Of a stretch of 64,000 nt of DNA, positions 44,496 to 61,979 are shown in pieces. The position numbers and the translations under genes were made by a program. Source of the stretch: Streptomyces sp. NBC_00285 (lineage in GTDB: Bacteria > Actinomycetota > Actinomycetes > Streptomycetales > Streptomycetaceae). The notes beneath the pieces are model-generated. The model ran no database searches. It was not told the origin of the DNA and saw only the letters and a program-made list of their open reading frames with translations. The stretch covers positions 1,550,001 to 1,614,000 of the forward strand of contig NZ_CP108055.1 in the NCBI RefSeq assembly GCF_036174265.1, in the 5' to 3' direction. Numbering within the stretch: the stretch's first letter is position 1; each line of letters opens with the position of its first letter.

Positions 44496-44830
44496 CTCAC
44501 GCTTCCTGTCCAGGACACGGGCGTGGCTCAGCTTATGAGGAGAGCGGAGCGGGCCTGCGCGGATGCCGACTCCGGCGAAGACAGCGAAGAGCCTCGGTCT
44601 CGACCTACTCCGACTCGCACAGGACATACGCACCACCACGCGCACCACCACGCGCACCGAGATCATCCCGCACGAGCGATCAGAAACCCACGGCCGGCTG
44701 CGCTGACCGCGACAGGTCCCGGGCAGGGGCCGATCGGCCCCTGCCCGGGACCTGCGGCCCCTGCACCACGGACTCGATCGACACCAGTCTGGAATCGGAT
44801 CGTGCGATCCCTATTCAGGAGGTGGCGACC
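44496..44830. other. Control region of 335 bp at the head of the stress island
   Basis: No gene was seen. It contains the 42-bp palindrome with the first copy of the GGGGCCG-N2-CGGCCCC motif (annotated separately), then about 75 bp of promoter-proximal sequence with an AGGAGGTGG ribosome binding site before the first gene. Confidence 0.5.
44713..44754. promoter_or_regulatory. 42-bp perfect palindrome containing DevR-like box (site 1)
   Basis: The 42 bases read the same on both strands; the outer arm begins CAGGTCCCGGGCAGG and the core is GGGGCCGATCGGCCCC at 44726-44741. The core ends 90 bp before the start codon of the first universal stress protein. The core recurs at four other promoters of the island. 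The length suggests extended or multiple dimer binding. Confidence 0.75.
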
Positions 44831-45775
44831 ATGCCCCGAACCGTCACTGTGGGCCTCGACGGCTCATCCGAGAGCCGTGCCGCCGCCGAATGGGCGGCCA
44901 GGGAGGCCAGGCTGCGCGGCCTGCCGCTGAAGCTCGTCAACGTCGCGGAGCCGGTTCCCACGCCGATGGCGCAGGCCCCGCTCCTGGGCGCCGAGCCCCA
45001 GCAGCACGGGACCGGGCGAAGCGAGACGGGTGCACCTCCGGCCGCGGGCTGGGGGTGGATCTGCCGTGAGTCCGCAGAGGGACTGCGGCTGCGGCACCCC
45101 GGTGTCGAGATCACCGCGGAGCAGGTCTCCGGCCGGCCCGGCGAGGTCCTGGCGCACCTGGCCGAGGACGCCGCGCTGCTCGTCCTGGGCTCGCGCGGGA
45201 TGAGCGGGGTCGGCGGGTTCCTGGTGGGCTCGGTCGGCCTCGCCGTCGTGGCGCACGCCGAGCGGCCCGTGGTCCTCGTACGGGCCGGTGAACAGGCCGC
45301 CGACGAGCACCTGATGGACCCGGCGGGCATCCCGTCCGCCGCGGCCCCCTACCGGCCCGTGGTCCTGGGCCTGGACACCGACGACCCGGACCCCTCGCTC
45401 GTCGAGTTCGCCTTCGACGCGGCCGGCCGCCGCGCCACCTCACTGCGGGTCGTCCACGGCTGGAACCCGCCTCCCTACTACGCCTACGGCCTCTCCTCCG
45501 ACCTCGAACTCCACACCGAGCTGTCCCGGCAGCAGGCCACCGCCCTGACCGACCTCCTGCGCCCGTGGCGGCAGAAGTTCCCCGCCGTCGAGGTGGTCGA
45601 GGAGTCCCGGTACGGAACGGCCGCCATTCACCTGGTCGACGCCTCGCGTGAGGCCTCCCTGGTCGTCGTCGGCCGCCGTATCCGCCGCAGCCCGCTCGGC
45701 GCCCGCGTCGGCCCGGTCACGCACGCCGTACTGCACCACTCCACCGCCCCCGTCGCCGTCGTCCCGCACGGCTGA
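44831..45775 (+). CDS. Tandem-domain universal stress protein (USP 1)
   Basis: This 314-residue protein has two UspA domains (about 2-155 and 165-312). The first keeps the ATP-binding signature (LGSRGMSGVGGFLVGSVG); in the second it is degenerate (VVGRRIRRSPLGARVGPVTH), as in many actinobacterial tandem USPs. Such proteins are prominent members of the mycobacterial dormancy regulon. AGGAGGTGG sets the ATG at 44831. It is the first gene of a run with adh, a second USP, phosphoketolase and GAPDH, headed by site 1. Confidence 0.94.
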   Translation: MPRTVTVGLDGSSESRAAAEWAAREARLRGLPLKLVNVAEPVPTPMAQAPLLGAEPQQHGTGRSETGAPPAAGWGWICRESAEGLRLRHPGVEITAEQVSGRPGEVLAHLAEDAALLVLGSRGMSGVGGFLVGSVGLAVVAHAERPVVLVRAGEQAADEHLMDPAGIPSAAAPYRPVVLGLDTDDPDPSLVEFAFDAAGRRATSLRVVHGWNPPPYYAYGLSSDLELHTELSRQQATALTDLLRPWRQKFPAVEVVEESRYGTAAIHLVDASREASLVVVGRRIRRSPLGARVGPVTHAVLHHSTAPVAVVPHG

Positions 45776-45799
45776 CCTGTCCCGAGGAGGAGAGAATCC

Positions 45800-46822
45800 A
45801 TGAAGGCAGCAGTCGTACGAGCCTTCGGCGAGCCCCTGGTCATCGAGGAGCGCCCCGATCCCGAGCCCGGCGCCGGACAGGTCCGTATCCGGGTCGAGGC
45901 CTGCGGGCTGTGCCACACCGACATCCACGCCGCCCGCGGAGACTGGCCGGTCAGGCCGAACCCGCCGTTCGTCCCCGGCCACGAGGGCGTCGGCCTCGTC
46001 GAGGCCCTCGGCGACGGCGTCACGCACCTCGCACCGGGGCAGCGCGTCGCCGTGCCCTGGCTGGGCAGGACGTGCGGGCGTTGCGAGTACTGCCTGTCCG
46101 GCCGGGAGACGCTGTGCGAGCAGCAGATCAACACCGGATACGGGTGCGACGGCGGGTACGCGGAGAAGATGCTGGCCTGGGCCGACTTCGCCCAGCCGGT
46201 GCCCGACGGCATCAGCGCCCTGGAGGCCGCGCCGCTGACCTGCGCCGGCGTCACCACGTACAAGGCGCTCAAGGTCGCCGACGTCAAGCCGACCCAGCTG
46301 GTGGCCATCTCCGGTGTCGGAGGACTGGGCCACCTGGCGGTGCAGTACGCGAAGATCGCCGGGGCGACCGTCGCCGCGATCGACGTCACCGACGAGAAGC
46401 TCGAACTCGCCGCGGAACTCGGCGCCGACCTCGTCATCGACGCCCGCAAGCAGGACCCGGCAGAGGTGCTGCGACGGTACGGCGGTGCGCATGCCGCCGT
46501 CGCGCTCGCGGTGAACGAGGCGGCGTTCTCGGCGGCGTACGCCGGGCTGCGGCGCGGCGGGAAGCTCGTGATGGTGGCCCTGCCGGCGCACGGCACGATC
46601 CAGGTCCCGATCTTCGACACCGTGCTGAACGGCACCTCGGTGATCGGCTCCATCGTGGGCACCCGGCAGGACCTGGCCGAGGTCTTCCAGCTCCACTCGG
46701 CAGGCCGCACCAGGGTCATCTACGAGACACGGCCGCTCGCCGGCGTCAACGAGTCCATCGACGAGGTGCTGCGCGGCGACATCAAGGCGCGGATCGTCTT
46801 CGACATGGCTGCGGGAAGGTGA
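45800..46822 (+). CDS. adhP: Zinc-dependent alcohol dehydrogenase (AdhP type)
   Basis: This 340-residue medium-chain dehydrogenase has catalytic zinc ligands in CGLCHTDIH and GHEGVG, structural zinc Cys in CGRCEYCLSGRETLC and the NAD-binding GVGGLGHLAVQYAK near residue 172. It interconverts primary alcohols and aldehydes, probably ethanol and acetaldehyde, helping NADH reoxidation under low oxygen. GAGGAGGAG precedes the ATG. It starts 24 bp after USP 1 and ends 5 bp before USP 2. Confidence 0.95.
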   Translation: MKAAVVRAFGEPLVIEERPDPEPGAGQVRIRVEACGLCHTDIHAARGDWPVRPNPPFVPGHEGVGLVEALGDGVTHLAPGQRVAVPWLGRTCGRCEYCLSGRETLCEQQINTGYGCDGGYAEKMLAWADFAQPVPDGISALEAAPLTCAGVTTYKALKVADVKPTQLVAISGVGGLGHLAVQYAKIAGATVAAIDVTDEKLELAAELGADLVIDARKQDPAEVLRRYGGAHAAVALAVNEAAFSAAYAGLRRGGKLVMVALPAHGTIQVPIFDTVLNGTSVIGSIVGTRQDLAEVFQLHSAGRTRVIYETRPLAGVNESIDEVLRGDIKARIVFDMAAGR

Positions 46823-46827
46823 CGGCG

Positions 46828-47700
46828 ATGGAGCTCCCCCTGGTCGTGGGCGTCGACGGTTCCGAGCCGAGTCTGCGCGCCGTGGACTGGGCGGCCGACG
46901 AGGCCGCCCTGCGCGGGGTGCCATTGAGGCTGGTGTACGCCTCGCTGTGGGAACGCTACGAGGGTGCCGCCCTCGCCACGGGTCTTGGCAGGTCCTCGGA
47001 GCAGGTGCTGGCCGACACCATCGTCGAGGCCGCCGCGAAGCGTGCGCACCGCCGCGAGGCGGACGTGAAGATCTCCACCGAGGTACTGCCCGAAGAGCCG
47101 GTGCCCGCTCTGCTGCGCGAGGGCCAAATCGCTTCCGCACTGGTCCTGGGCTCGCGCGGCCGCGGCGGCATCGCCGAGCTGCTGCTCGGCTCGGTCAGCC
47201 TCGCGGTGGCCGCCCGCGCCGACTGCCCGGTGATCGTGCTGCGCGGCAGCCACGACAACCGGGCGACGTCCGCGACGCGCGGGCGCGTCGTGTTGGGGGT
47301 CGGCGAGGAGCCGGAGAACTCGGCGGCCGTACGCTTCGCCTTCCAGGAGGCGGCGCAGCGCCGGGTGCCCCTGGAGGCCGTACGCGCCTGGCGGTGCCCC
47401 GGGTACGAGACCACCGACCATCCTCTGATGGCCGGCGAACCCGCCCGGCTGCACGAGGAGCGGGCCGTTCAGACCCTGGACGCGGCGCTGCGGGATGCCC
47501 CGGAGGGTGTGGAACTGCACCGGCGTACCGCCGAAGGCCCCGCACGCACGGTGCTGCTCGACGCCTCGGCCGACGCCGGCCTGCTCGTTGTCGGCGCCCA
47601 GCGGCGCCACGGCCACTTCGGGCTCCAGCTCGGCCGGGTCGCCCACACGGTCCTGCACCACTGCGCCTGCCCGGTGGCCGTCGTACCCCAACGGGCATGA
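46828..47700 (+). CDS. Tandem-domain universal stress protein (USP 2)
   Basis: This 290-residue protein has two UspA domains. The first carries the ATP-binding signature ([18 protein letters not shown]); the second has a degenerate version ([19 protein letters not shown]). It starts 5 bp after the adh stop (a GTG at 46819 overlapping that stop is an alternative), so translational coupling is likely. The low pairwise similarity to USP 1 and 3 argues against very recent duplication. Confidence 0.93.
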
Positions 47701-47854
47701 CCGGCTCAGAGCGCCACCGTGTGCGCGACCCGCGGGTTCACGTGCGCCGGGACGCGTTCGAACGTGGCGCCCCTCGAACACCACGACGAGCGGGCGCCCT
47801 CGGTTCCCGCCCCTTCCGGAAGCCCGACTCGCCTCGATGAGTTACGGAGTCACC

Positions 47855-50239
47855 ATGCCCAAGGTCGAAAACCGGAACAGCACCGTGCTGACCGACGAGG
47901 AACTACGCACCCTGGACGCCCACTGGCGGGCCGCCAACTACCTTGCCGTCGGCCAGATCTACCTGCTGGCCAACCCACTGCTCACCGCACCCCTCACCGC
48001 CGCCCACATCAAGCCGCGGCTGCTCGGCCACTGGGGCACCTCCCCCGGCCTCAACCTCGTGTACACGCACCTCAACCGCGTGATCAGGACTCGCGGTCTC
48101 GACGCGCTGTGCGTGTGGGGGCCGGGTCACGGCGGCCCGGCGATGCTCGCGAACTCCTGGCTGGAGGGCAGCTACAGCGAGACCTACCCGGACGTCTCGC
48201 GGGACGCGGCGGGTATGGACCGGCTCTTCCGGCAGTTCTCGTTCCCCGGCGGAGTACCCAGCCATGTCGCGCCGGAGACACCCGGCTCGATCCACGAGGG
48301 CGGCGAGCTCGGCTACTCACTCGCGCACGCCTACGGTGCCGCCTTCGACAACCCGGACCTGCTGGTCGCCTGTGTGATCGGCGACGGTGAGGCGGAGACC
48401 GGGCCGCTCGCCGCGTCCTGGCACTCCAACAAGTTCCTCGACCCGGTACACGACGGCGCCGTCCTGCCGATCCTGCACCTCAACGGCTACAAGATCGCCA
48501 ACCCGACCGTGCTGTCCAGGCTCCCGGAGTCCGAACTCGACGAGCTGCTGCGCGGCTACGGCCACGAGCCGATCCACGTCACCAGCGACGACCCGCACCA
48601 GGTCCACCGTGCCATGGCCGACGCCTTCGACCAGGCGCTGGACCGCATCGCCCTGATGCAGCGCACGGCCCGCGAGGACGGCGTGACCGAGCGCGCGCAC
48701 TGGCCCATGATCGTGCTGCGCACGCCGAAGGGCTGGACGGGCCCCGCCGAGGTCGACGGAGTCCCGGTCGAGGGCACCTGGCGCGCCCACCAGGTCCCGC
48801 TGTCCGGCGTACGCGAGAACCCGGAGCACCTGCGGCAGTTGGAGACCTGGCTGCGCTCGTACCGTCCCGAGGAGCTCTTCGACACCGAGGGGCGGCCCAC
48901 CGCCGACGTCCTCGCCTGTGTCCCCGAGGGGACCCGCCGGCTGGGTGCCACCCCGCACGCCAACGGCGGTCTGCTCGTACGTGACCTGCCGATGCCGTCC
49001 CTCGACCGCTTCGCCGTCCCCGTCGACAAGCCGGGCGCCACCCTGCACGAGCCCACCCGGGTCCTCGGCGACCTCCTCGAACAGGTCATGCGGGACACAT
49101 CGGCACGGCGCGACTTCCGCCTGGTGGGCCCGGACGAGACCGCGTCCAACCGGCTCGGCGCCGTCCTCAACGCCAGCGGCAAAGCCTGGCAGGCCCAGAC
49201 CCTCCAGGTGGACGAGCACCTGGACCGGCACGGCCGGGTCATGGAGATCCTCTCCGAACACCTCTGCCAGGGCTGGCTGGAGGGCTATCTCCTCACCGGC
49301 CGGCACGGACTGTTCTCCTGCTACGAGGCGTTCGTCCACATCGTCGACTCGATGGTCAACCAGCACATCAAGTGGCTGAAGACGTCGAGGGAGTTGGCGT
49401 GGCGGGCACCCATTGCCTCCCTCAACTACCTTCTGACGTCGCATGTCTGGCGTCAGGACCACAACGGCTTCTCGCACCAGGACCCCGGGTTCATCGACCA
49501 TGTCCTCAGCAAGAGCCCCGGGGTCGTCCGGGTCTATCTGCCGCCGGACGCCAACACCCTGCTGTCCGTGGCGGATCACGTCCTGCGCAGCCGCGACTAC
49601 GTCAACGTGATCGTGGCGGGCAAGCAGCCCTGTTTCGACTGGCTGTCCATGGACGAGGCCCGCGCCCACTGCGCCCGCGGTGCCGGGATCTGGGACTGGG
49701 CCGGCAGCGAGAACAGCACGCGGGAACCGGATGTCGTCCTCGCCTGCGCGGGCGACGTACCCACCCTGGAGATCCTGGCCGCCTCCGGTCTGCTCCGCCG
49801 CCATCTGCCGGAACTCGCCGTCCGGGTAGTCAACGTCGTCGACCTGGCCCGGCTGCTGCCGCGCGAGGAACACCCGCACGGAATGGGCGACTTCGAGTAC
49901 GACGGCCTGTTCACCACCGACAAGCCGGTGATCTTCGCCTACCACGGCTACCCCTGGCTGATCCACCGCCTCGCCTACCGCCGCACCGGCCACGCCAACC
50001 TCCACGTCCGCGGCTACAAGGAGATGGGCACCACGACCACACCGTTCGACATGGTCGTCCGCAACGACATGGACCGCTACCGGCTCGTCACGGACGTCAT
50101 CGACCGCGTCCCGGGACTCGCGGTCCGCGCCGCCGCCGTACGGCAGGAGATGGCCGACGCCCGCACCCGCCACCACGCCTGGATCCGCGAGCACGGCACC
50201 GACCTGCCCGAGGTCACCGACTGGACCTGGACGGCCTGA
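47855..50239 (+). CDS. xfp: Phosphoketolase (xylulose-5-P/fructose-6-P)
   Basis: This 794-residue thiamine-diphosphate enzyme splits xylulose-5-phosphate (or fructose-6-phosphate) with phosphate to acetyl-phosphate and a glyceraldehyde-3-phosphate (or erythrose-4-phosphate). The TPP motif [19 protein letters not shown] near residue 178, HGGP and the HQDPGFIDH loop in the C-terminal half are family signatures, and the length is typical. The ATG at 47855 (GGAG with 5-nt spacing) is preferred over one 18 nt earlier. It follows USP 2 and is 31 bp before the GAPDH gene, which would take up the C3 product. Confidence 0.96.
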
Positions 50240-50270
50240 ACACCCCTACCGCGCGAAGGAGTTCAACGCC

Positions 50271-51310
50271 ATGACCGTACGGGTCGGCATCAACGGCTTC
50301 GGCCGCGTCGGCCACACCTACCTCCGCGCGGCCCTCGACCGGGCGGAGGCGGGCACCCAGTACGTCGTGGTGGTCGCCGTCAACGACATCGCTCCGCCCG
50401 CCACCCTGGCCCTCCCCCAGACTCCGTCCGGGGGGACCCCCAGCTGGAGTACGACTCGACGTTCGGCCGGATCGGACGCGAGGTCACCCACGACGACAGT
50501 TCGATCACCGTCGACGGCCATCGCATCGCCGTCACCGCCGAACGCGACCCGGCCGCCCTCCAGTGGGGCGACTGCGGCGCCGACATCGTCATCGAGTCCA
50601 CCGGGCACTTCCGTGATCGCGACTCGGCCGCACTGCACCTGAAGAGCGGCGCCCACACGGTGCTGCTCTCCGCGCCCGGCAAGGACGCGGACGCCACCAT
50701 CGTGATGGGCGTCAACGACGGCACGTACGACCGTCACAGTGACCGGATCGTGTCGGCGGCCTCCTGCACCACCAACTGCGCCGCTCCCATGGTCAAGGTC
50801 CTCCACGAGACCTTCGGCATCGACCGCGGCATGATGACCACCCTCCACGGCTGCACCAACGACCAGTCCCTCCTGGACTGCCCGCACAGGGACCCGCGCC
50901 GGGCCCGCTCCGCGGCGCTCGGCATCATCCCGACCAGCACGGGAGCCGCCCGCGCAGTCGGCCTGGTGCTGCCGGAACTGGCGGGTGCGCTGGACGGCAT
51001 CGCGGTCCGCGTGCCCCTCGAGGACGGCTCGCGCACGGACCTCGCGGTGGTGCTGCGGCGCGAGACGACGGTGGACGAGGTCAACACGGCCTTCGCCGAG
51101 GCCGCTCAGGGCCCGTTGAACGGCATCCTCCGCGTGTCGAAGGCGCCCATCGTCTCCCGCGACGTCATCGGCGACCCCGCTTCCTGCGTCTTCGACCCGG
51201 CGCTGACGCAGGCGCACGGCCATCTGGTCAAGGTCTTCGGCTGGTACGACAACGAGTGGGGCTACGCAAACCGGCTCCTGGACCTCACGGCGCTGGTGGC
51301 CGACGACTGA
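50271..51310 (+). pseudogene. gap: Glyceraldehyde-3-phosphate dehydrogenase, frameshifted by a mini-repeat insertion
   Basis: Frame 1 from 50271 encodes a normal GAPDH start (VGINGFGRVGHTYLRAALD, then VVAVNDIAPPATLA). A 32-bp palindromic insert at 50412-50443 then shifts the frame by two. Downstream, the second frame continues a normal GAPDH from LEYDSTFGRIG to its end with no other lesion: catalytic Cys in SAASCTTNCAAP, and KVFGWYDNEWGYANR. Unless corrected, translation stops at 50642 after 123 residues. The insert also replaces residues expected after ATLA (usually HLLEYDS). Confidence 0.85.
50412..50443. repeat. Palindromic mini-repeat inserted in GAPDH gene
   Basis: This 32-bp GC-rich element starts CTCCCCCAGACTCCGTCCGG and ends GGGGACCCCCAG, with several inverted C/G runs able to form hairpins. 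From memory it resembles a short repeat dispersed in Streptomyces intergenic regions; no database was searched. It interrupts an otherwise intact coding frame. Confidence 0.75.
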
Positions 51311-51427
51311 GGACGCCGACCCGTACACCGGCGTCACCGTCACCCCGCCCGCGCCCGCGCCCGGCCCGCACCCCGTGACGTCTGCCGGGTGCCGGCCTGG
51401 GCCGTTGCCGTGCGGGGCCGGGCTCCA

Positions 51428-51441
51428 GGGCCGATCGGCCC
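51428..51441. promoter_or_regulatory. DevR-like box (site 2) upstream of the acetyltransferase fusion gene
   Basis: GGGCCGATCGGCCC is a perfect 14-bp palindrome identical to the core of site 1. It ends 86 bp before the next start codon and follows the GAPDH stop by 117 bp. Confidence 0.7.
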
Positions 51442-51526
51442 CCAAAGCACCCCCGGACAGCCCATGCGGTCACCGCCCGATCCGCTGGATGCTCGAAGTG
51501 CCAGAAGGCTTTGGAGGAGACCCGCG

Positions 51527-54235
51527 ATGACGTATGACACGCTCAGCCGACCCACGGTCCATGCCCTGCTCTCGGACGGCACCACCGTGTGCATACGTCC
51601 TGTGCGGCCGGGCGATCACGAGCAGTTGCAGGGGCTCTACGAGGAGATGTCCGCGGAGAGTCTGCGGCTGCGGTTCTTCGCGGCGAGCCGGCGTTCCGCA
51701 GCGATGGCCACCGACCGGGCGTGTGCGCCGCCGCGCCCCGGCTACCGGGCGCTGATGGCCGAGTCGCAGGGGCAGGTGATCGGCCTGGCCGAGTACGAGG
51801 TCGGCGGCGAAGCGGCCACGGCCGAGATCTCCGTCGCGGTGGCCGACGGACTGCACCACCGGGGCGTCGGCACACTCCTGATCGAGCATCTGGTCTCCGC
51901 CGCCCGTGCGGACGGCATCACCACGTTCACGGCGGACGCGCTCTCGGAGAACCACGAAGTCCTTCGGCTCTTCGCCGACCTGGGCCTGCGCACCGCACGC
52001 CGTTTCGAGGGTCCGGAGGTGCGCTGCGTCATCGCACTGAACGAGAACGACGCCGAGGACGACCAGGGCTATCTCTCTGCCGTCGAGGCCCGCGGCCGGG
52101 CCGCCGACGTGGCCAGCCTGGAGCCGCTGCTGCGGCCGACCGCGATCGCCGTGGTAGGCGCCGGGCGCAGGCCGGGATCGGTGGGGCGGGCCCTCCTGCA
52201 CCATCTGCACGAGGGCGGCTTCACCCGACGGCTCTTCGCGGTGAACCCCTGTGCCACCTCGATCCTCGGCGTGCCGTCCCACCCCTCGGTCAGCGCGCTG
52301 CCCAGGGTCCCGGATCTCGCGGTCCTCGCGGTGCCCGCGGCAGCCCTCCCCGCCACCGCGGAGGAGTGCGGCAAGGCCGGAGTACGAGCACTGCTCGTCG
52401 TCTCGGCCGGCCTCGACAGCCGGCAGGCGGAAGCGCTCATGGCCGCCTGCCGCACATACGGCATGCGGCTCGTCGGCCCCAACTCCCTCGGCATCACCAA
52501 CACCGACCCGGCACTCTCCCTCGACGCCACCTTCGCGGCGGACCATCCGCGCCCCGGCACGGCGGGCGTCGCCGTGCAGTCCGGCGGCGTCGGCATCGCC
52601 CTGCTCGACGGGCTGTCCCGGCTCGGCATCGGTGTCTCGTCCTTCGCTTCGCTCGGCGACAAGTACGACGTCAGCGGCAACGACATGCTCCAGTGGTGGG
52701 AGAGCGACGGCCGCACCGACCTCGCCCTGTTGCACCTGGAGTCCTTCGGCAACCCGCGTGCGTTCTCCCGTACCGCACGGCGTGTGACCCGCCGCATGCC
52801 CGTGCTGACGGTCGACGCGGGCCGCACCGCCGCCGGCCGTCGCGCCGCCGCCTCGCACACCGCGGCCGCCGCGACCCCGACCATGACCCGGCAGGCGCTG
52901 TTCACCCAGGCCGGGATCACCGCCACCCGCTCTGTGGGTGAACTCCTCGAAACCGCGGCGCTGTTGCACTCCCAGCCGCTGCCGGCCGGGACCCGCGTCG
53001 CGATCGTCACCAATGCGGGCGGCGCGGGTGTCCTGGCCGCGGACGCCTGCGCGGAAGCGGGACTGTCGCTTCCGCCGCTCACACCCTCGGTGGTCGAAAG
53101 CCTGTCTGCCGTACTGCCCGACGGTGCGACCGCGGGCAACCCCGTCGACGTCACCGCCGCCGTCACGGAGGAGCAGCTCGGGGACTGCGTGGACCGGATC
53201 ATGCGGCACCCGGGGATCGACGCCGTCCTGCTTGCCCTCGTCCCCACGGCCGTCGCGGCCGCGACCGGCAACGACCTCGTGCGGGCCCTCACCAGCGGCC
53301 CCGCACACCGCGCCCTTCCGGTCGCCGTCGTACGCCTGGAGCAGGACCTGCCCGTCAGGCTGCTGCCGGCCACGGAGGGCGGCGCGATTCCCTCGTACGC
53401 CGAACCCGGTGCGGCAGCACGTGCGCTGGCCCACGCCGCTCACCGCGCGGCCTGGTTGAGCCGGGCGGCGGGCACGATCCCGGAGCTCGCGGGGGTCGAC
53501 ACGGCCCGGGCCCGCGCGGTCGCCGAGACGTACCTCGCCGCCCACCCGGACGGCGGCTGGCTCGATCCGCGTACCTGCGCCGAACTCCTCGGCTGCTACG
53601 GCATTCCCCAGCTCCCGTGGTCCTGGGCGCAGACGGAGGACGACGCCGTCGTCGCGGCCGAACGGCTGCGGGGCCCCGACGGAAGAGTCGTCATGAAGGC
53701 CCACTGGCCCGGCCAGTTGCACAAGAGCGAACAGCATGCCGTGCACCTCGACCTCGAAGGTGAAGCCCAAGTGCGCGCCGCCTTCAGGGACTTCGAGACA
53801 CGGTTCGCCGGACTGCTGACCGGGGTGATCGTCCAGCCACTGGCGGCACGCGGCACCGAACTGTTCGCGGGAGTCGTACAGGACGAGGTCTTCGGCCCGC
53901 TCGTGCTGTTCGGGCTCGGCGGCACCGCGACCGAGGTCCTGGCCGACCAGGCCGCCCGCCTCGCCCCGCTGACCGACCACGACGTACACGACCTGATCAC
54001 CGCACCGCGCTGCGCACCGCTCCTGTTCGGGGCACACGGCAGCGGACCCGTCGACCTCCAGGGTCTGGAGCAACTGCTGCTGCGCCTGTCCCGCATGGCG
54101 GGCGACCTGCCGCAGCTCGCCGAGGCCGACTTCAACCCCGTCCTCGCGACGCCCGGTTCGGTCACCGTGCTCGACGGGCGAGTCCGCCTGCTGCCGCGCA
54201 GGGCTCAGGACCCTTATCTACGCCGACTGCGCTGA
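51527..54235 (+). CDS. GNAT acetyltransferase fused to NDP-forming acyl-CoA synthetase (Pat-like)
   Basis: This 902-residue fusion has an N-terminal GNAT domain (about 10-165, acetyl-CoA loop HHRGVGTLLIEHLV), a CoA-binding domain (about 200-300), a succinyl-CoA-synthetase-like domain with the active-site His in ASHTAAAA, and a C-terminal ATP-grasp domain (about 690-890). Such proteins acetylate lysines of acyl-CoA synthetases and other enzymes using acetyl-CoA. Whether the synthetase part is active is unknown. GGAGGAG precedes the ATG. It is the first gene after site 2. Confidence 0.92.
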   Translation: MTYDTLSRPTVHALLSDGTTVCIRPVRPGDHEQLQGLYEEMSAESLRLRFFAASRRSAAMATDRACAPPRPGYRALMAESQGQVIGLAEYEVGGEAATAEISVAVADGLHHRGVGTLLIEHLVSAARADGITTFTADALSENHEVLRLFADLGLRTARRFEGPEVRCVIALNENDAEDDQGYLSAVEARGRAADVASLEPLLRPTAIAVVGAGRRPGSVGRALLHHLHEGGFTRRLFAVNPCATSILGVPSHPSVSALPRVPDLAVLAVPAAALPATAEECGKAGVRALLVVSAGLDSRQAEALMAACRTYGMRLVGPNSLGITNTDPALSLDATFAADHPRPGTAGVAVQSGGVGIALLDGLSRLGIGVSSFASLGDKYDVSGNDMLQWWESDGRTDLALLHLESFGNPRAFSRTARRVTRRMPVLTVDAGRTAAGRRAAASHTAAAATPTMTRQALFTQAGITATRSVGELLETAALLHSQPLPAGTRVAIVTNAGGAGVLAADACAEAGLSLPPLTPSVVESLSAVLPDGATAGNPVDVTAAVTEEQLGDCVDRIMRHPGIDAVLLALVPTAVAAATGNDLVRALTSGPAHRALPVAVVRLEQDLPVRLLPATEGGAIPSYAEPGAAARALAHAAHRAAWLSRAAGTIPELAGVDTARARAVAETYLAAHPDGGWLDPRTCAELLGCYGIPQLPWSWAQTEDDAVVAAERLRGPDGRVVMKAHWPGQLHKSEQHAVHLDLEGEAQVRAAFRDFETRFAGLLTGVIVQPLAARGTELFAGVVQDEVFGPLVLFGLGGTATEVLADQAARLAPLTDHDVHDLITAPRCAPLLFGAHGSGPVDLQGLEQLLLRLSRMAGDLPQLAEADFNPVLATPGSVTVLDGRVRLLPRRAQDPYLRRLR

Positions 54236-54247
54236 GGAGGAACGGAC

Positions 54248-54364
54248 ATGAGGCACAACAAGGTCGGCACCGTGATGACCACCGAGGTCGTCCTGGTCAT
54301 CACGGTGATCTCCGAAACCGACCTGATGGTCCGGCAGGAAGACTCTGAACCGCACAACCTGTGA
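54248..54364 (+). pseudogene. CBS-domain protein reduced by internal deletion
   Basis: A 38-codon frame with a strong ribosome binding site (GAGGAGG) starts like a CBS protein (MRHNKVGTVMTTEVV) and ends like the following CBS segment (VISETDLMV), but about 40-45 residues of the first CBS fold between these parts are missing and the tail is short. The two retained segments are in frame. It is 12 bp after the acetyltransferase gene and 16 bp before the flavodoxin gene, so it was probably a normal operon member before the deletion. Confidence 0.72.
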
Positions 54365-54380
54365 GAGGAGGCGGACCGCC

Positions 54381-55374: not shown

Positions 55375-57120
55375 ATGAGCGAGGATCGGCACGGCGGTAC
55401 CGAGGAGCAGGTGCCCAAGCTGCGGCTCGACGAGCTGCTGGACGAGCTACAGGTGCGCATCGACGCCGTACGGGGTACGCGGGACCGTCTGCACAGCCTG
55501 CTGGAGGCCGTTCTCTCCGTCGGGCGGGAGCTCGACCTGCCACAGGTGCTGCGCAGCATCGTCGAGGCCGCGGTGGTGCTGGTGGACGCCGAGTACGGGG
55601 CGCTGGGTGTGATCGGCGGTGACCAGAAGCTGTCCGAGTTCCTGACCGTCGGCATCGGCGAGGAGGGGCACTCGGAGATCGGGTCGCTGCCCAGCGGGCA
55701 CGGACTCCTCGGAGAGCTGATCCGGCACCCGGTACCACTGCGGCTGCCGGAGCTGTCGGAGCACCCGGCGTCGTACGGCTTCCCGGCCAACCATCCGCCG
55801 ATGCACTCCTTCCTCGGCGTACCGATCCGGGTGCGCGACGAGGTCTTCGGGAACCTCTACCTCACCGAGAAACGCAGCGCCAGGGAATTCGACGTGGAGG
55901 ACGAGTCCGTCCTGTCGACGCTGGCGGTCGCCGCCGGGGTGGCCATCGAGAACGCACGGCTGTACGAGGAGACCAGGCTGCGCGAACGCTGGCAGCGGGC
56001 CAGCGGCAAGGTCACCAGCATGCTCCTGACCGGTGCGCCGAGCCCGGACGTCCTGGAACTGATCGTCGACGAGGCCCGCAAGATCGTCTCCGCCGACATG
56101 GGACTGATCGCGGAACACGTACCGGGCGAGGAGACACTACGGCCGGCCCTGGCGGTCGGCCTGGGACGAGAGGAACGCAGCGGTCTGGTGCTGTCCGCGC
56201 GCGACGGTTTCGTCGGAGCGGCACTCGGCGCGGCCGAACCGGTGGTCAGCGCCGACATCGAGCGCGACGCGCGCACCGGCGAGGACGAAGCCCAGTGGGC
56301 CGGGCTCGGACCCGTGGTCGCGGTGCCGCTCGGTGCCGGCGGCAAGGCGCGGGGCGTGTTGTTGCTGGGGCGCGTACCGGCGGGTACGCCGTTCGGCGAC
56401 GTGGACACCGGGCCGCTGCTCGGGTTCGCCGACCAGGCGGCGCTCGCCCTGGAGCTGGCCGAACGGCGGCGGGACGCGGAACAGCTCACGCTGCTCAAGG
56501 ACCGTGACCGCATCGCCCGCGACCTCCATGACCTCGCCATCCAGCGGCTCTTCGCGGCCGGCATGACCCTGCAGAGCACCCAGCGCTTCATGGAGCACCC
56601 CGAAGGCATGGAGCGGCTGACACGGACCGTCGACGACCTCGACGACACCATCAAGATCATTCGTTCCACGATCTTCGGACTGCGCACCCACAGCGGGGGC
56701 AGGCGGGAGAGCGACGGCTTGCGCGGCCGGGTGGCCGAGGCGGTGAGAGCGTCGGTCACGTCTCTCGGATTCCCGCCCGCACTGCGCATCGAGGGGCTCG
56801 TCGAGACCGACGTCCCCGGCGACATCGCCGACCATGCGGTCGCGGTGCTCGGCGAGGCCCTCAGCAACGCGGCCCGGCACTCCGGAGCACAGGCGGTGGA
56901 CGTCCGACTTCAGTGTGCCAGGGGCGAGTTGACGCTCACGGTGACGGACGACGGCTGCGGGGTGCCGGACGGAGTCGAACGCAGCGGGCTGAAGAACATC
57001 AAGGAGCGGGCCGTCACCCTCGGCGGAGTTCTCGCACTCGGCGAACGGCCGGAGGGCGGCGGAACACGACTGGTGTGGCGGGTCCCCGTGCGTGCGGACG
57101 GTGCCGCGGACGAAAGCTGA
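55375..57120 (+). CDS. devS: DevS-like GAF-domain sensor histidine kinase
   Basis: This 581-residue soluble kinase has two GAF domains (about 55-195 and 220-365), a HisKA_3 dimerisation helix with the phospho-acceptor His in RDRIARDLHDLAIQRLFAAG (near residue 385) and an HATPase_c domain (about 470-570, GEALSNAARHSGAQ and VTDDGCGVPDG). The layout matches the DevS/DosT family, which senses O2, NO or CO through heme in the first GAF; heme binding here is inferred, not visible. It is convergent with the response regulator gene rather than in one operon. Confidence 0.92.
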   Translation: MSEDRHGGTEEQVPKLRLDELLDELQVRIDAVRGTRDRLHSLLEAVLSVGRELDLPQVLRSIVEAAVVLVDAEYGALGVIGGDQKLSEFLTVGIGEEGHSEIGSLPSGHGLLGELIRHPVPLRLPELSEHPASYGFPANHPPMHSFLGVPIRVRDEVFGNLYLTEKRSAREFDVEDESVLSTLAVAAGVAIENARLYEETRLRERWQRASGKVTSMLLTGAPSPDVLELIVDEARKIVSADMGLIAEHVPGEETLRPALAVGLGREERSGLVLSARDGFVGAALGAAEPVVSADIERDARTGEDEAQWAGLGPVVAVPLGAGGKARGVLLLGRVPAGTPFGDVDTGPLLGFADQAALALELAERRRDAEQLTLLKDRDRIARDLHDLAIQRLFAAGMTLQSTQRFMEHPEGMERLTRTVDDLDDTIKIIRSTIFGLRTHSGGRRESDGLRGRVAEAVRASVTSLGFPPALRIEGLVETDVPGDIADHAVAVLGEALSNAARHSGAQAVDVRLQCARGELTLTVTDDGCGVPDGVERSGLKNIKERAVTLGGVLALGERPEGGGTRLVWRVPVRADGAADES

Positions 57121-57152
57121 CCGCGGAAGGCCTCCGCTCCACCGGCCCGGAC

Positions 57153-57188
57153 GGCGAGGCGGGGCAGGGCGGCGAGGCGGGGCAGGGC
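57153..57188. repeat. 18-bp tandem repeat x 2
   Basis: GGCGAGGCGGGGCAGGGC occurs twice without a gap in the 72-bp space between the convergent kinase and response regulator genes. It may affect termination or simply reflect slippage. Confidence 0.7.
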
Positions 57189-57192
57189 GGAC

Positions 57193-57894
57193 TCATCGCG
57201 TCGGGCGGTCGGTGGCGGCGGGCTGTTCGAGATGGCTGGCCAGGACCGCCGCCTGGACGCGGCGCTGGACGCCGAGCTTGGCGAGCAGCCGGGAGATGTG
57301 GTTCTTCACCGTCTTCTCGGACAGGTAGAGCTTCTTGCCGATCTCACGGTTGGTGAGCCCGTCCCCGATCAGCGCGAGGATGTCCCTCTCGCGGGGTGAC
57401 AGGCCGGCGAGCTCGGGTGCGGGTGCCGGTCCCTCGGTGGGGTCCGCCCGCAGGGAGCGCATCAGGCGGGCGGTCGTCGCCGGATCCAGCATCGACTGCC
57501 CGGAAGCAACCGTGCGGACCGCCGCGACCAGGTCGGACCCCCTGATCTGTTTGAGCACATAGCCCGCCGCCCCGGCCATGATCGCGTCGAGCAGGGCCTC
57601 CTCCTCGTCGAAGGACGTCAGCATCAGACAGGCCAGCTCCGGCATGCGGCTGCGCAGCTCACGGCAGACACTGATCCCGTCACCGTCCGGCAGGCGTACG
57701 TCGAGGACGGCCACGTCCGGGCGCAGCGCCGGCCCGCGCACCAGCGCGTGCTCGACGCTGTCCGCATCGCCGACCACCGAGATGTCCGGCTCGGAGTCCA
57801 GCAGGTCGGTGAGGCCGCGTCGTACGACCTCGTGGTCGTCCAGCAGGAAGACCCGGATCGGGTTCTGCTGCGTGAAGGTACGTGCCTCGGCCAT
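57193..57894 (-). CDS. devR: DevR-like LuxR-family response regulator
   Basis: This 233-residue NarL/LuxR response regulator has a receiver domain (about 13-130, phospho-acceptor Asp in VAVLDVRLPD, Lys in GYVLKQI) and a LuxR helix-turn-helix (about 165-222, LSPRERDILALIGDGLTNRE and LSEKTVKNHISRLLAKLGV). It resembles DevR/DosR and its Streptomyces counterpart OsdR. The ATG at 57894 has GAGGGG upstream. A matching palindrome 90 bp upstream (site 3) suggests autoregulation. Confidence 0.92.
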   Translation of the reverse strand: MAEARTFTQQNPIRVFLLDDHEVVRRGLTDLLDSEPDISVVGDADSVEHALVRGPALRPDVAVLDVRLPDGDGISVCRELRSRMPELACLMLTSFDEEEALLDAIMAGAAGYVLKQIRGSDLVAAVRTVASGQSMLDPATTARLMRSLRADPTEGPAPAPELAGLSPRERDILALIGDGLTNREIGKKLYLSEKTVKNHISRLLAKLGVQRRVQAAVLASHLEQPAATDRPTR

Positions 57895-57983
57895 GACGAC
57901 CCCTCGTTCGCTGGTGGCCCAGGGACTACGGACCACATGCCGACTGTGATGGCGATGGTCACCCTTGTGAAGCGGATGCACCA

Positions 57984-57997
57984 GGGCCGACCGGCCC
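57984..57997. promoter_or_regulatory. DevR-like box (site 3) upstream of devR
   Basis: GGGCCGACCGGCCC keeps both GGGCC/GGCCC arms with a changed centre. It is 90 bp upstream of the devR start, the same spacing as sites 1 and 2. Confidence 0.65.
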
Positions 57998-58029
57998 AAC
58001 CGGGCGATGGCCCCCGGTTCGGCCGGCGG

Positions 58030-58704
58030 TCATTGCTCCGGGCGGCGCGTCGGGCCCGCGAGCTCGCACTCCACGTCCACCACACCTTCGACGGCCCGCA
58101 CCAGGCGTGCGGCCACGGGCACCAGGGAGGTGTCCCTGACACGCCCGGCAAGTGTGACGATCCCCTGCTTCACCTGCACGCGCACAGACGAGTACGACGC
58201 GGGGAACAGGTACGGCACGACTTCCCTGCGGACCTCCTCGGCGACCTCCTCGTCGTCCCGCAGGAACACCTTCAGCAGATCACCGCGGCTGACAACGCCT
58301 TCCAGCCTGCCTGAGTCGTCGACGACGGGGAGCCGTTTGACCTTGGCGTGCGCCATGGTGCGGGCGGCCTGCGCGAGCGTCGCGGTCGCGTGGACGGTCA
58401 GGGCCGGCGACGTCATCAGCTCCTCGGCGGTCACGGCGCCGGCCTTGGCGAGATCGGAGAAACGCCGCAGCTGTGTGTCACGGTCGGGGTCGGCGTCGCG
58501 GAACTCCTCCTTGTACAGCAGGTCGGCCTCGGAGACGACGCCGACCACCCGGCCCTTCCCCTCTCCTGGGCCCTCCAGAACGGGAAGGGCACTGACGTCC
58601 CACTGCTCCATCAGCTGCACGATCTCCTTGAAGTCGGCCCTGCGGCCGATGGAGGCGACAGGGTGGGTCATCACGTCGCTCACGATGTGCGGGGTGCCGT
58701 GCAC
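58030..58704 (-). CDS. CBS-pair and BON domain protein
   Basis: This 224-residue protein has two CBS motifs (about 8-65, VSDVMTHPVASIGRRADFKE; and 93-150, ELMTSPALTVHATATLAQA) that may bind adenine nucleotides, followed by a BON domain (about 155-217, VRVQVKQGIVTLAGRVRD) often associated with membranes. Related CBS proteins belong to the mycobacterial dormancy regulon. It starts 42 bp after the cyclic-nucleotide-binding gene and is probably co-transcribed with it. Confidence 0.92.
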   Translation of the reverse strand: MHGTPHIVSDVMTHPVASIGRRADFKEIVQLMEQWDVSALPVLEGPGEGKGRVVGVVSEADLLYKEEFRDADPDRDTQLRRFSDLAKAGAVTAEELMTSPALTVHATATLAQAARTMAHAKVKRLPVVDDSGRLEGVVSRGDLLKVFLRDDEEVAEEVRREVVPYLFPASYSSVRVQVKQGIVTLAGRVRDTSLVPVAARLVRAVEGVVDVECELAGPTRRPEQ

Positions 58705-58746
58705 GGTGACTCCTTGGTCGGTTCCGACGATTCCATCGTGGACGGG

Positions 58747-59223
58747 TCAGAGAGAGCTGCCGCTGCCGTAGGGCGCGTACACGTCCAGCAGGCGGGTCCT
58801 CGCCGACCGCAGTCGGCGGGCGACGACGTCTCCCACCCACTGGGTCACCGCCATTCCCAGTACGGGATCGGCCCGGCACATGGCCACTACCGCCTCGGCA
58901 TCGAACTCGTACGCGCGTACCGGGCTCGTCGTCTCGGCGCCCAGGCACCAGGCGTGCGGTCCGAACAACCAGGACCAGCCCACGAGTTCGTTGTGCCCGA
59001 GTGTCTCGATGACGGCTGCCCGGCGACCGGGCACGTGCATGTCGAGGGCGATCGTGCCGGTACGGATGATCCAGAACCGGTCGGCCCGCCCGCCCTCCTC
59101 GAAGAGGTGGGTGCCCTGCGGGAACGACACCTCGCGGGCGAGGCTCATCAGCCGCTCGCGGTGATCGGCGGGCAACGCCCGCAGCATGGTGGATGCAAAG
59201 GTGGATGTAGGGGAAGCGTTCAT
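58747..59223 (-). CDS. Cyclic nucleotide-binding domain protein without DNA-binding domain
   Basis: This 158-residue protein consists of a single cNMP-binding (CAP_ED) domain: LFEEGGRADRFWIIRTG, and the phosphate-binding region near ELVGWSWLFG. There is no C-terminal helix-turn-helix, so it is not a classical Crp/Fnr regulator and may sense a ligand for a partner protein. It is divergent from USP 3; site 4 lies in the shared 299-bp gap. Confidence 0.85.
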   Translation of the reverse strand: MNASPTSTFASTMLRALPADHRERLMSLAREVSFPQGTHLFEEGGRADRFWIIRTGTIALDMHVPGRRAAVIETLGHNELVGWSWLFGPHAWCLGAETTSPVRAYEFDAEAVVAMCRADPVLGMAVTQWVGDVVARRLRSARTRLLDVYAPYGSGSSL

Positions 59224-59408
59224 GGTCCTGCCTCTTCCTGGAGCGCGACCCTGCCGACTCCAATCTCTCCCCGTCTCCCCTCCTCCGCCATGGGCCACCC
59301 GGCCCCCAGACCGGGCCGCATGGCATCGGTCAGGGCGATCTGCATGGCCCGTTGCCCGTGCCGCGAGGTGCGGGAGGCCGCCGGGCCGTGCACGGCGGGA
59401 CAGCATCA

Positions 59409-59422
59409 GGGCCGAAGGGCCC
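59409..59422. promoter_or_regulatory. DevR-like box (site 4) between the cNMP-protein and USP 3 genes
   Basis: GGGCCGAAGGGCCC keeps the GGGCC/GGCCC arms. It ends 101 bp before the USP 3 start and is 186 bp from the divergent cNMP-binding gene, so it could serve both directions. Confidence 0.65.
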
Positions 59423-59522
59423 CTCACAAGGGCCTGCCCGGCCTCTGCGCCGCTGCTCGTCCCGGTACCAGGCTCGATGGAGGAAGAGAAACCCACGGGC
59501 AGCAACACTGGAGGTACTGATC

Positions 59523-60431
59523 ATGCTTCGACATGTCACCGCGGGGATCGACGGTTCTCCCGAAAGCCTGGCAGCCGTGCACTGGGCGGCCCGGGAAGCC
59601 ATACGCCGGGGCGCCGCGCTGTGCCTGGTGCATGCCTGGGAGTGGCATCCGCGTCCGGCTGCGCCCGTGCCCGCGGACATGTCCGAACGGGCCCGGGCCG
59701 AGGACCTGCCGGAACGGGCGGCGAACAGCATGCGCGCCGCGCACCCAGACCTGCAGGTCATCGGCCAGGCGCTGGCGGACTCGCCGGTCTCAGCCCTCCT
59801 CAAGGCGGCCGAGCAGGCCGAGCTGCTGGTCCTCGGCTCCCGTGGGCTCGGCGGCGTCGCGGGGTTCGTGATGGGGTCGGTGTCGCAGCGGGTCGTCGCC
59901 AGGGCACCCTGTCCCGTGGTGTTGGTGAGGGCGGGCGGGAGCACCGCCGACGAGCACTTCTCGGCACCGGACGGCATCTCCCCGGACGAGATACCCGGGA
60001 TCCCGTACCGCGATGTCGTCCTCGGTCTCGACACCGGCGGGCCCTGCGACGAACTGATCGAGTTCGCCTTCGACGCCGCCGGACGCCGGGGCTCCTCGCT
60101 GCGTGTGATCCACGCCTTCAGCCGTCCGCCGGACTTCGCCGTGGCGGACAGCCTCGTCCCGGTGAGCAGCCCGGAGCTGAGGGCGGAGCGGGAGCACGCC
60201 GTGGCCGCCGCACTGCGCCCCTGGTGCGAGAAGTTCCCCGAGGTCGCCGTCACGGAGAGCGTCGCCGAAGGACGTGCCGCCGGCAAGCTGATCGGCGCCT
60301 CGGCCGGCGCGGCCCTCCTCGTGATGGGACGCCGGATCCGCGAATCCCGTCTCGGCACCCACCTCGGCCCTGTCGCGCACGCGGCGCTGCATCACGCGCC
60401 CTGCCCCGTCGCCGTCGTCCCGCACGCCTGA
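59523..60431 (+). CDS. Tandem-domain universal stress protein (USP 3)
   Basis: This 302-residue protein has two UspA domains (about 1-140 and 152-300). The first has the ATP-binding signature (LGSRGLGGVAGFVMGSVS); the second is degenerate (MGRRIRESRLGTHLGPVAHA). GGAGGTACTG precedes the ATG at 59523. It is the most similar to USP 1 in its C-terminal domain. The PPDK remnant follows after 32 bp on the same strand. Confidence 0.94.
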   Translation: MLRHVTAGIDGSPESLAAVHWAAREAIRRGAALCLVHAWEWHPRPAAPVPADMSERARAEDLPERAANSMRAAHPDLQVIGQALADSPVSALLKAAEQAELLVLGSRGLGGVAGFVMGSVSQRVVARAPCPVVLVRAGGSTADEHFSAPDGISPDEIPGIPYRDVVLGLDTGGPCDELIEFAFDAAGRRGSSLRVIHAFSRPPDFAVADSLVPVSSPELRAEREHAVAAALRPWCEKFPEVAVTESVAEGRAAGKLIGASAGAALLVMGRRIRESRLGTHLGPVAHAALHHAPCPVAVVPHA

Positions 60432-60463
60432 ACAAGCCCGGAGGGTGAGAGACGACCCGGTAC

Positions 60464-60640
60464 GTGTACGCATTCGCCGAGGGCGGCCGTGACATGGCGG
60501 ACGTCCTCGGCGGCAAGGGGGCGAACCTCGCGGAGACGACCCGGCTGGGACTGCCCGTACCCCCTGGCTTCACCGTCACCACGCGCGCCCCGCCGGGAGT
60601 ACCTGGCCACCGGTGCGGAACCCCAGGAGCTGGGCGCCCA
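60464..60640 (+). pseudogene. ppdK: Pyruvate phosphate dikinase, N-terminal remnant
   Basis: The first 40 codons match the start of pyruvate phosphate dikinase closely ([20 protein letters not shown] then [12 protein letters not shown]). Near 60580 the frame shifts by one and resumes as [18 protein letters not shown], after which similarity ends. The remaining about 800 residues are absent. Intact PPDK would make phosphoenolpyruvate from pyruvate, ATP and phosphate, and its homologs occur in dormancy loci. A second unassigned protein-like piece (about 60685-60790, [20 protein letters not shown]) follows. Confidence 0.75.
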
Positions 60641-60787
60641 GGTCGCCCTTCGGTGCTGGAGCGCCGGATCGGCCACGAGCCGGGCGGCCGGGCATCCACA
60701 ACGCCGTACCGCTCGCCGAACCGGACCGCCTCGACCCGGCGTCGTACCGGCAGCTCGTCGATCACATGCGGTCCCTTGACGTCCCGT

Positions 60788-60843
60788 GTCGCCATGGCGG
60801 TGACCTGCCAGGACAGGTCCTGGCAGGTCACCGCCATGGCGAC
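60788..60843. repeat. 56-bp near-perfect palindrome
   Basis: Two 27-bp arms, starting GTCGCCATGGCGGTGACCTG on each strand, are separated by only AG (60815-60816). It lies between the PPDK remnant and the 3' end of the SPFH gene. It could extrude a cruciform, act as a very strong terminator for the SPFH gene, or be the scar of the rearrangement that removed PPDK. Confidence 0.85.
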
Positions 60844-60848
60844 GTTGA

Positions 60849-61706
60849 TCAGGCGGTCTTGGTCGCCCCGTTCAGTACCGGGGCGGGGTCGGTCCTGGTG
60901 TCGTCGAGGGACGGCGGCACGGTGGCCGTGACGGCTGCTGCCGTCTCCCGGGCGAGGAAGGAGCCGAGTTCGCCGATGGTGCTCATGAGGGGGGCGGGGA
61001 AGACGACTGTGGTGTTCTTGTCCACGCCGATCTCCACCAGGCTCTGGAGGTTGCGGAGTTGGAGTGCGAGCGGGTGGTTCATCATGATGTCCGAGGCGTC
61101 GCCGAGTGCCGCGGCGGCCAGTGATTCACCCTCGGCGTTGATGATTTTGGCGCGCTTCTCGCGCTCTGCCTCGGCCTGACGGGCCATCGCCCGCTTCATG
61201 CTGTCGGGGAGCTGGATGTCCTTGAGCTCCACCAGTGTGACCTCCACACCCCATTCGGCGGTCGTGACGTCGAGGATCTCGCGGATGCCGAGGTTGATGC
61301 GGTCGGTCTCCGAGAGTGTCTCGTCGAGGGTGTGCTGGCCGACGACCTTGCGCAGGGTGGTCTGGGCGATCTGGTTGATCGCCGTATGGACGTTCTCGAT
61401 CGCGATGACCGATTTCACCGCGTCCACGACCCGGAAGTAGGCGACCGCCGACACATCGACGCTCACGTTGTCCCGGGTGATGATGCCCTGGGACTGGATC
61501 GGCATCGTCACGATCCGCAGCGACACCCGGTGCAGGACTTCCACGACCGGGACGATGATCCGCAGCCCCGGTTCCCGTGATCCGACGAGTCGGCCGAACC
61601 TGAACAGCACTCCTTGTTCGTACTGCTTGACGATCTTGATCGCCATGGCGAGTACCACCAGGGCCAACAGGATCGCGATGACCAGAAGGAAGATCAGGAC
61701 TTTCAT
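60849..61706 (-). CDS. SPFH/band 7 family membrane protein (slipin)
   Basis: This 285-residue protein has one N-terminal membrane segment (about 3-22, [18 protein letters not shown]) and an SPFH/prohibitin domain ([14 protein letters not shown] to about residue 195, [20 protein letters not shown]). The C-terminal helix promotes oligomerisation in membrane microdomains. GAGGAG supports the ATG at 61706. It is convergent with the PPDK remnant and may be terminated by the 56-bp palindrome. It is often found in actinobacterial stress loci. Confidence 0.9.
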
Positions 61707-61886
61707 GGTGCCGCTCCTCAGAATGAGGACCGCGTCGTTCCCGCGCGAGGCCCGGAGTACGTCGGCGGAGCAGGGGAAATTGGCCCGGGTCCGTCCGCAG
61801 GGTTCTCGGTGTGGTCCGGTGTGACCTTTCCGCGACGAGCCGCCCTGCCGTGTATCCAGCATCGCCCGGTGTCCCCGGCCACGGCA

Positions 61887-61902
61887 GGGGCCGAACGGCC
61901 CC
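61887..61902. promoter_or_regulatory. DevR-like box (site 5) upstream of the SPFH gene
   Basis: GGGGCCGAACGGCCCC matches the site 1 core except for the centre. It lies 181 bp upstream of the SPFH start, in the 273-bp gap downstream of the magnesium ATPase gene, a longer distance than the other four sites. Confidence 0.65.
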
Positions 61903-61979
61903 AACCTCCCGCCCCGGCGGTACGTCCGGGCGCCTGCGCCGACACCTCGACCGCTGCTGATGGGCGTGGTGACAGCGTG

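Follow-up and report, generated by a model that had tools for sequence, protein, structure and literature searches.

The window analysed here, 64,000 nucleotides of Streptomyces sp. NBC_00285 (positions 1,550,001-1,614,000 of a 10.3-Mb genome; 71% G+C), carries five palindromes that are very probably the operators of an OsdR-type response regulator encoded among them at 57193-57894. The core GGGCC-N4-GGCCC occurs without mismatch at 44727-44740, 51428-51441, 57984-57997, 59409-59422 and 61888-61901, and the gap between site edge and start codon is 90 bp for the first universal stress protein gene (USP1), 85 bp for a gene encoding a GNAT acetyltransferase fused to an acyl-CoA ligase (GNAT/ligase), 89 bp for the regulator gene itself (devR, here also osdR), 100 bp for a third universal stress protein gene (USP3) and 181 bp for an SPFH gene. 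An earlier note on this DNA had described five such sites as a DevR/OsdR-like regulon. Exact cores stand at all of its coordinates, its distances agree with ours within a base (85-100 bp for four sites and 181 bp for the SPFH gene), and an independent gene finder likewise places all five between genes. Its reading as an OsdR-type regulon, which has already been published for S. coelicolor, is supported by sequence comparison: the boxes match the published OsdR consensus, the regulator resembles DevR over its full length (248 bits), and devR is preceded by a box in 62 of 80 loci. Two of its details need correction. The devR site, with the centre GACC, departs from the GAWS of the consensus that it printed; and a sixth exact core at 59292-59305, with a low score, had been overlooked. 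The predicted boxes, with their scores on a position weight matrix (PWM), are as follows.

44726..44741, unstranded: predicted OsdR primary box of the USP1 run, GGGGCCGATCGGCCCC, PWM 18.8
51427..51442, unstranded: predicted OsdR box of the GNAT/ligase gene, AGGGCCGATCGGCCCC, PWM 20.6
57983..57998, unstranded: predicted OsdR box of devR itself, PWM 17.2
59408..59423, unstranded: predicted OsdR box of USP3, AGGGCCGAAGGGCCCC, PWM 16.4
61887..61902, unstranded: predicted OsdR box of the SPFH gene, PWM 18.2
59292..59305, unstranded: weak sixth core GGGCCACCCGGCCC upstream of the cNMP-domain gene, exact core, PWM 5.3, uncertain

Full-motif scores of the predicted operators

The bare core is a poor statistic, and the full motif carries the signal. 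Allowing one mismatch, the window contains 18 copies of the core where 20.7 would be expected, which is no enrichment; over the whole genome, 108 exact cores per strand compare with 223 for the reversed control, the commoner of the two. The exact sequence GGGCCGANCGGCCC occurs at 11 genomic places, four of them in the window; counted by strand there are 13 matches, against 15 for the reversed control. Since the core was not enriched, the full motif was tested with an outside matrix, a symmetric PWM built from 25 distinct S. coelicolor OsdR sites taken from Table 1 of PMC5069765, with no window sites used. It scores the five boxes at 16.4-20.6, and the next best site within the 64 kb reaches 12.3. 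Sites scoring at least 16 number five in the window, compared to a mean of 0.07 and a maximum of 2 in 200 shuffles, and none of 200 column-permuted matrices reaches five sites (mean 0.17 sites of at least 16). There is no site of at least 16 in the coding DNA of the window. Beyond the window, the genome was covered by pattern searches and by matrix scoring of sampled stretches: 260 kb of sampled background hold no intergenic and one coding site of at least 16, and a further 140 kb of targeted stretches (near other matches, plus the window flanks), excluded from the background count, hold four intergenic and one called-coding site of at least 14. Just right of the window, at L212 3618-3633, a box of moderate score (11.7) lies beside the start called for the P-type ATPase gene, which extends into the window.

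Whether the core at 59292 is a sixth operator is uncertain; among 55 matches to the cNMP-domain gene in relatives, 15 have a site of at least 12 and eight a site of at least 16.

Conservation in related genomes

The relatives comprise 80 named loci around the DevR-like gene, the best 80 of at least 570 relatives; by record, 77 are from Streptomyces, two from Actinacidiphila and one from another actinobacterium. A box of at least 16 is found within 300 bp upstream of devR in 62 of the 80 loci, usually near -90, and one of at least 12 in 69; random stretches of the same loci, which may contain real boxes themselves, reach these scores in 14 and 20 of 400 cases. Equal frequency of the motif in coding DNA, set beforehand as the refuting outcome, did not occur: 163 of the 173 strong sites (at least 16) are intergenic and 10 coding, with an intergenic share of sequence of 17.7%. 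After merging of sites with identical local context, 172 primary sites were kept, and for the 166 that have a start codon within 350 bp it lies at a median of 94 bp.

Conservation extends to individual targets. For the GNAT/ligase, USP3 and SPFH genes, a search of 150 genomes each supplied 30 loci per gene for scoring. The GNAT/ligase box scores at least 12 in 25 of 30 loci (own genome included) and at least 16 in 19, and in 24 of the 25 it lies at -89.5 to -95.5, about 92 bp before the start; this gene is accordingly placed among the predicted targets as a conserved one, an addition to the earlier observation. Among 33 USP1 orthologs (best matches below 55% identity, without a start or with less than 260 bp upstream were dropped), 27 have a box of at least 8.5 at -60 to -140. 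Separately, a consensus of 26 aligned GNAT/ligase promoters contains a second conserved element, approximately CAGCCC-N-TGGG, about 30 bp after the box from centre to centre.

Regulator, kinase and proposed mechanism

The regulator aligns with mycobacterial DevR (3c3w) over residues 13-224 and both domains (248 bits, E 5e-73); the stretch EKTVKN is common to the two chains in this alignment, and the protein is a DevR-type NarL regulator whose recognition helix is conserved. Its putative orthology to SCO0204 is based on gene order and the published description. The first GAF domain of the neighbouring kinase (55375-57120) matches 2vzw at 178 bits, listed as a probable histidine kinase, which we take to be DosT, and the DevS GAF domain 2y8h at 154 bits; the conserved histidine of an HPPM stretch, presumably the haem ligand, is present. 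As the earlier note had observed, no box precedes the kinase gene (best score in the upstream 300 bp, 5.0); of 52 kinase-like genes examined in relatives, 16 are preceded by a site of at least 14 within 260 bp. Kinase and regulator genes are convergent here and so do not form one operon. Among the 80 relatives the two genes are convergent in 27, with the kinase upstream on the opposite strand in two, same-strand neighbours in none and more than 2 kb apart in 18; the remaining 33 have no kinase match above 400 bits in the locus, and some of these loci end early. The 29 relatives with such a match no more than 2 kb away all have kinase and regulator on opposite strands.

We propose that oxygen or nitric oxide is probably the signal sensed by the GAF kinase, which is of the DevS/DosT type and would phosphorylate OsdR. 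Phosphorylated OsdR dimers would then occupy the 16-bp palindromes, which lie about 90-110 bp ahead of the start codons of USP1 (followed by alcohol dehydrogenase and USP2), GNAT/ligase, osdR and USP3 and at a greater distance from that of the SPFH gene; the bound genes would be activated, and the box before osdR suggests autoregulation. At USP1, an asymmetric second box two helix turns downstream may let a second dimer bind beside the first. Observations bearing on this scheme are the match to the published sites, intergenic placement, conservation, fixed positions and a 20-22-bp pairing of boxes. The signal, phosphorylation, binding and activation steps would be as in published work on S. 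coelicolor and mycobacteria.

Second boxes and their spacing

Primary boxes are followed by a weaker secondary box at two promoters of the window, those of USP1 and USP3.

44747..44764, + strand: second, composite box GGGACCTGCGGCCCCTGC of the USP1 promoter, 20 bp after the primary box (start to start of the 14-mers), identified by ortholog conservation
59429..59444, unstranded: weaker partner box 21 bp after the USP3 box, PWM 7.3

The USP1 copy is the only exact match to GGGACCTGCGGCCCCTGC in its own genome. Within four mismatches the sequence recurs in 28 of the 33 USP1 orthologs, 23 times at exactly 20 bp; the consensus was derived from the same promoters on which it was counted, and at up to 4/18 mismatches it is common by chance (30 matches in the 260-kb background, both strands). 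The second box is meaningful because its place is fixed and its partner box is present. Three places in the genome match GGGACCTGCGGCCCCTGC with at most one mismatch. A GGGCC palindrome is found 20 bp away from two of them, namely the USP1 promoter and a near-identical composite box at 9.88 Mb between PPK2 and sulfate-permease genes.

Pairing is also apparent across the relatives. On either side of the 172 primary sites, 37 second sites of at least 6 lie at 20-22 bp, compared with 3.1 expected from offsets of 25-80 bp, and 35 of the 172 sites have such a partner. The partner at +21 recurs in six of 30 USP3 homologs (own genome included). No comparable partner at 20-22 bp accompanies the other three boxes of the window, those of devR, GNAT/ligase and SPFH.

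One half of the second box of USP1 is GGGACCT and the other CGGCCC. In the 80 loci the strict composite GGGACCT-N-CGGCCC is found 17 times in intergenic and never in coding DNA, and there is no copy with the A replaced by T or G; for the looser pattern GGGAC-N4-GGCCC the counts are 57 intergenic and 10 coding, for its T variant 14 and 7, and for its G variant 12 and 22. Elsewhere in the genome, near 10.18 Mb, three OsdR-type boxes (14.9, 14.9 and 17.2), spaced 32 and 61 bp, stand upstream of a gene for a zinc alcohol dehydrogenase; by eye, the gene preceding this trio resembles a transposase.

Contrary evidence and a second DevR-like regulator

Several observations weigh against the assignment of these boxes to the neighbouring OsdR, or against individual targets. 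Outside the window GGGCCGANCGGCCC occurs exactly at seven places, five of which fall in called open reading frames (one of the five perhaps owing to a start called too early), so the exact core alone is insufficient for an operator. Eighteen of the 80 devR genes have no site of at least 16 within 300 bp. The USP3 and SPFH boxes are weakly conserved, with a box of at least 12 in 14 and five of 30 homologs, respectively. The relatives' genomes are kin, and thus the conservation counts are not independent events. Finally, the genome encodes a second DevR-like paralog at 5528879-5529514 (5.53 Mb) that is 60% identical to the neighbouring regulator, has a similar recognition helix and could bind the same sites. 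For the SPFH gene, the nine closest orthologs (own genome included) were compared: only four score above 11, the next three after the window's own box at 11.7-12.9 and the other five at 7.4 or less, and hence this target appears to be recent or weakly held.

Binding of the boxes mainly by this paralog, rather than by OsdR, is the most serious of the alternatives, and we consider it improbable. The paralog, present in 104 of 150 genus genomes (own included), is closer to mycobacterial DevR (263 bits) than OsdR is (248 bits), and it is probably the ortholog of SCO3818, which, like SCO0204, is phosphorylated by the kinase SCO0203 according to passages of PMC3881020, PMC9739842 and PMC5069765. However, its own neighbourhood features another box. 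In the 30 paralog loci scored from these 104 genomes, an exact GGGAC-N4-GTCCC, not GGGCC-N4-GGCCC, stands just after the paralog gene in 17 (17 occurrences in 108 kb, compared to seven in 1.59 Mb of background); in the 16 of these loci where a following gene was called, the box lies 44-68 bp ahead of it. In our genome the gene that follows resembles a pyridoxamine oxidase, its Pfam score falling just short of the cut-off. The recognition helices also differ: that of the paralog reads KNYVS in 30/30 loci, the same as in the mycobacterial chain, whereas that of the OsdR orthologs reads KNHIS in 77/80 and KNNIS or KNNVS in three. Moreover, the GGGCC box stands before osdR itself, and OsdR binds GGGCC sites in vitro, as described for electrophoretic mobility shift assays in PMC5069765.

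These two classes of box raise the idea of a two-letter operator code, in which an OsdR homodimer would recognise GGGCC-N4-GGCCC, a paralog homodimer GGGAC-N4-GTCCC, and the composite box would hold a mixed dimer beside an OsdR homodimer, all under one shared kinase; the helix residues after Lys-Asn (His-Ile or Tyr-Val) would then decide between C and A at position 4 of the half-site. We regard this code, helix residues included, as speculative and rather unlikely. A low-affinity site for an OsdR homodimer is the simpler account of the second box, because OsdR alone bound in vitro a probe from the SCO5978/SCO5979 region whose site, as listed in PMC5069765, is a composite. The half-of-each composition makes a mixed dimer conceivable and does not demonstrate one. 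For such a dimer there is a precedent in BldM-WhiI, two Streptomyces response regulators reported in PMC4125116 to form a functional heterodimer at promoters. Together, the second box and the separate class of box beside the paralog offer a route to how one kinase, OsdK, drives two regulators, for which passages of PMC9739842 report opposite effects on actinorhodin production.

The long palindrome at USP1

The primary box of USP1 lies within a longer symmetrical sequence.

44713..44754, unstranded: 42-bp perfect palindrome enclosing the USP1 primary box, seen in the sequence

This palindrome folds strongly as RNA (z -7.6), as would be expected if the palindromes were RNA hairpins or transcription terminators and not protein operators. 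Such an explanation is very improbable for the set. The other four boxes fold no better than shuffles (z -0.17 to -0.85); of two terminator-like matches in 44000-62500 neither is at a box; the USP1 box is flanked by two divergent genes (SnoaL-like on the - strand, USP1 on the +); and both the fixed positions and the pairing at 20-22 bp are in keeping with DNA binding. The long arms, too, are missing from 32 of the 33 USP1 orthologs: relatives keep mainly the right-hand part, and only L067 approaches the full form (10/13 flanking pairs). A function for the long USP1 palindrome was rejected on account of this near absence. Among 273 sites, a palindrome longer than the core is also found at the devR box of S. 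hokutonensis (L039, 13/13 flanking pairs), and template-switch mutation is a possible cause of these long palindromes.

Chance clustering of GC-rich palindromes in a window of 71% G+C, with which the unenriched one-mismatch core and the genome-wide counts no higher than their reversed controls would agree, is highly improbable in view of the full-motif scores, the intergenic placement, the conservation across species and the fall of 4/11 exact GGGCCGANCGGCCC places within 64 kb of 10.3 Mb.

Gene content of the region

The last 20 kb of the window encode a USP-alcohol dehydrogenase-USP run, phosphoketolase, a broken gapdh, the GNAT/acyl-CoA ligase fusion, flavodoxin, the GAF-GAF kinase, the convergent DevR-like regulator, a CBS-BON gene, the cNMP-domain gene, the third USP, a pyruvate phosphate dikinase remnant, the SPFH gene and a P-type ATPase. 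The genes that bear on the predicted regulon are listed below.

44136-44666, - strand: SnoaL-like gene, divergent from USP1
44831..45775, + strand: USP1, uspA-like (PF00582, two stretches)
45800..46822, + strand: alcohol dehydrogenase directly after USP1 (PF08240/PF00107; NCBIfam AdhP above cut-off)
46828..47700, + strand: USP2 (PF00582)
51527..54235, + strand: GNAT acetyltransferase fused to NDP-forming acyl-CoA ligase, Pat-like (Pfam)
55375..57120, + strand: OsdK-like sensor kinase, GAF-GAF-HisKA_3-HATPase (Pfam; GAF structures 2vzw and 2y8h)
57193..57894, - strand: DevR/OsdR-like response regulator (3c3w)
58747..59226, - strand: cNMP-binding-domain protein, divergent from USP3 (PF00027)
59523..60431, + strand: USP3 (PF00582)
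60849..61706, - strand: SPFH/Band 7 protein (PF01145)

The start of USP3 is the ATG at 59523, the gene finder's call (59667) being too late. No NCBIfam model matches the GNAT/ligase protein above its cut-off. Among 30 window proteins scanned with Pfam there is no nar2 nitrate reductase or nitroreductase; no Rfam family matches the window at the gathering score, and no sigma-70-type promoter was found in 44000-62500. The gapdh gene (50271-51310) is split over two frames and contains a 31-bp palindromic element (50412-50442) with three copies in the genome, and in 60464-60843 a perfect 27-bp inverted repeat, its arms separated by 2 bp, comes after the N-terminal remnant of pyruvate phosphate dikinase.

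Comparison with known systems

With this analysis a dormancy-type regulon that was already known gains a further genome, together with the conserved GNAT/ligase target, the second box at a fixed place and a separate class of box beside the paralog. In a partial survey of the literature on OsdR, SCO3818 and DosR in Streptomyces we found no description of these three elements. As a protein-acetyltransferase type, the GNAT/ligase could link low oxygen to lysine acetylation.

The closest counterpart is the OsdR (SCO0204) regulon of S. coelicolor (Urem 2016, PMC5069765), whose published 16-nt palindrome AGGGCCGATCGGCCCT is matched almost letter for letter by the boxes of the window. Both systems combine a DevR-like regulator with a GAF-type kinase. 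In both, boxes precede osdR (published at -81, with a gap of 89 bp here) and the uspA-alcohol dehydrogenase-USP run (published at -100, with a gap of 90 bp before the run at 44831-47700 here), and a USP gene lies beside pyruvate phosphate dikinase, of which only a remnant is left in our genome. The two differ in gene arrangement: an osdR-osdK operon appears in the text of PMC5069765, and the order response regulator-histidine kinase in a review table, whereas the genes are convergent here; the operon claim is itself uncertain, as Table 1 of the same paper gives no co-transcribed gene for SCO0204c. They also differ in targets, since the GNAT/ligase and SPFH genes, which have boxes here, are absent from that table. 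The words "tandem" and "spacing" are absent from the text of PMC5069765.

The paralog has its likely counterpart in SCO3818, an orphan regulator similar to SCO0204, and the presumed operator GGGAC-N4-GTCCC, identified in this analysis, sets it apart. BldM-WhiI involves different regulators, and for the OsdR pair a mixed dimer is conceivable from sequence alone.

The DevR/DosR regulon of Mycobacterium tuberculosis is alike in its homologous regulator, in the GAF domain of its kinase and in having USP genes among its targets. The mycobacterial half-site is GGGAC, compared with GGGCC for the primary half-site here, and the gene content of the DosR regulon is mostly different from that of the window. 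Both systems feature a primary box paired with a weaker secondary one: the mycobacterial boxes are bound cooperatively by DevR, as described in passages of PMC3029386, and those of the window are known from their sequence.

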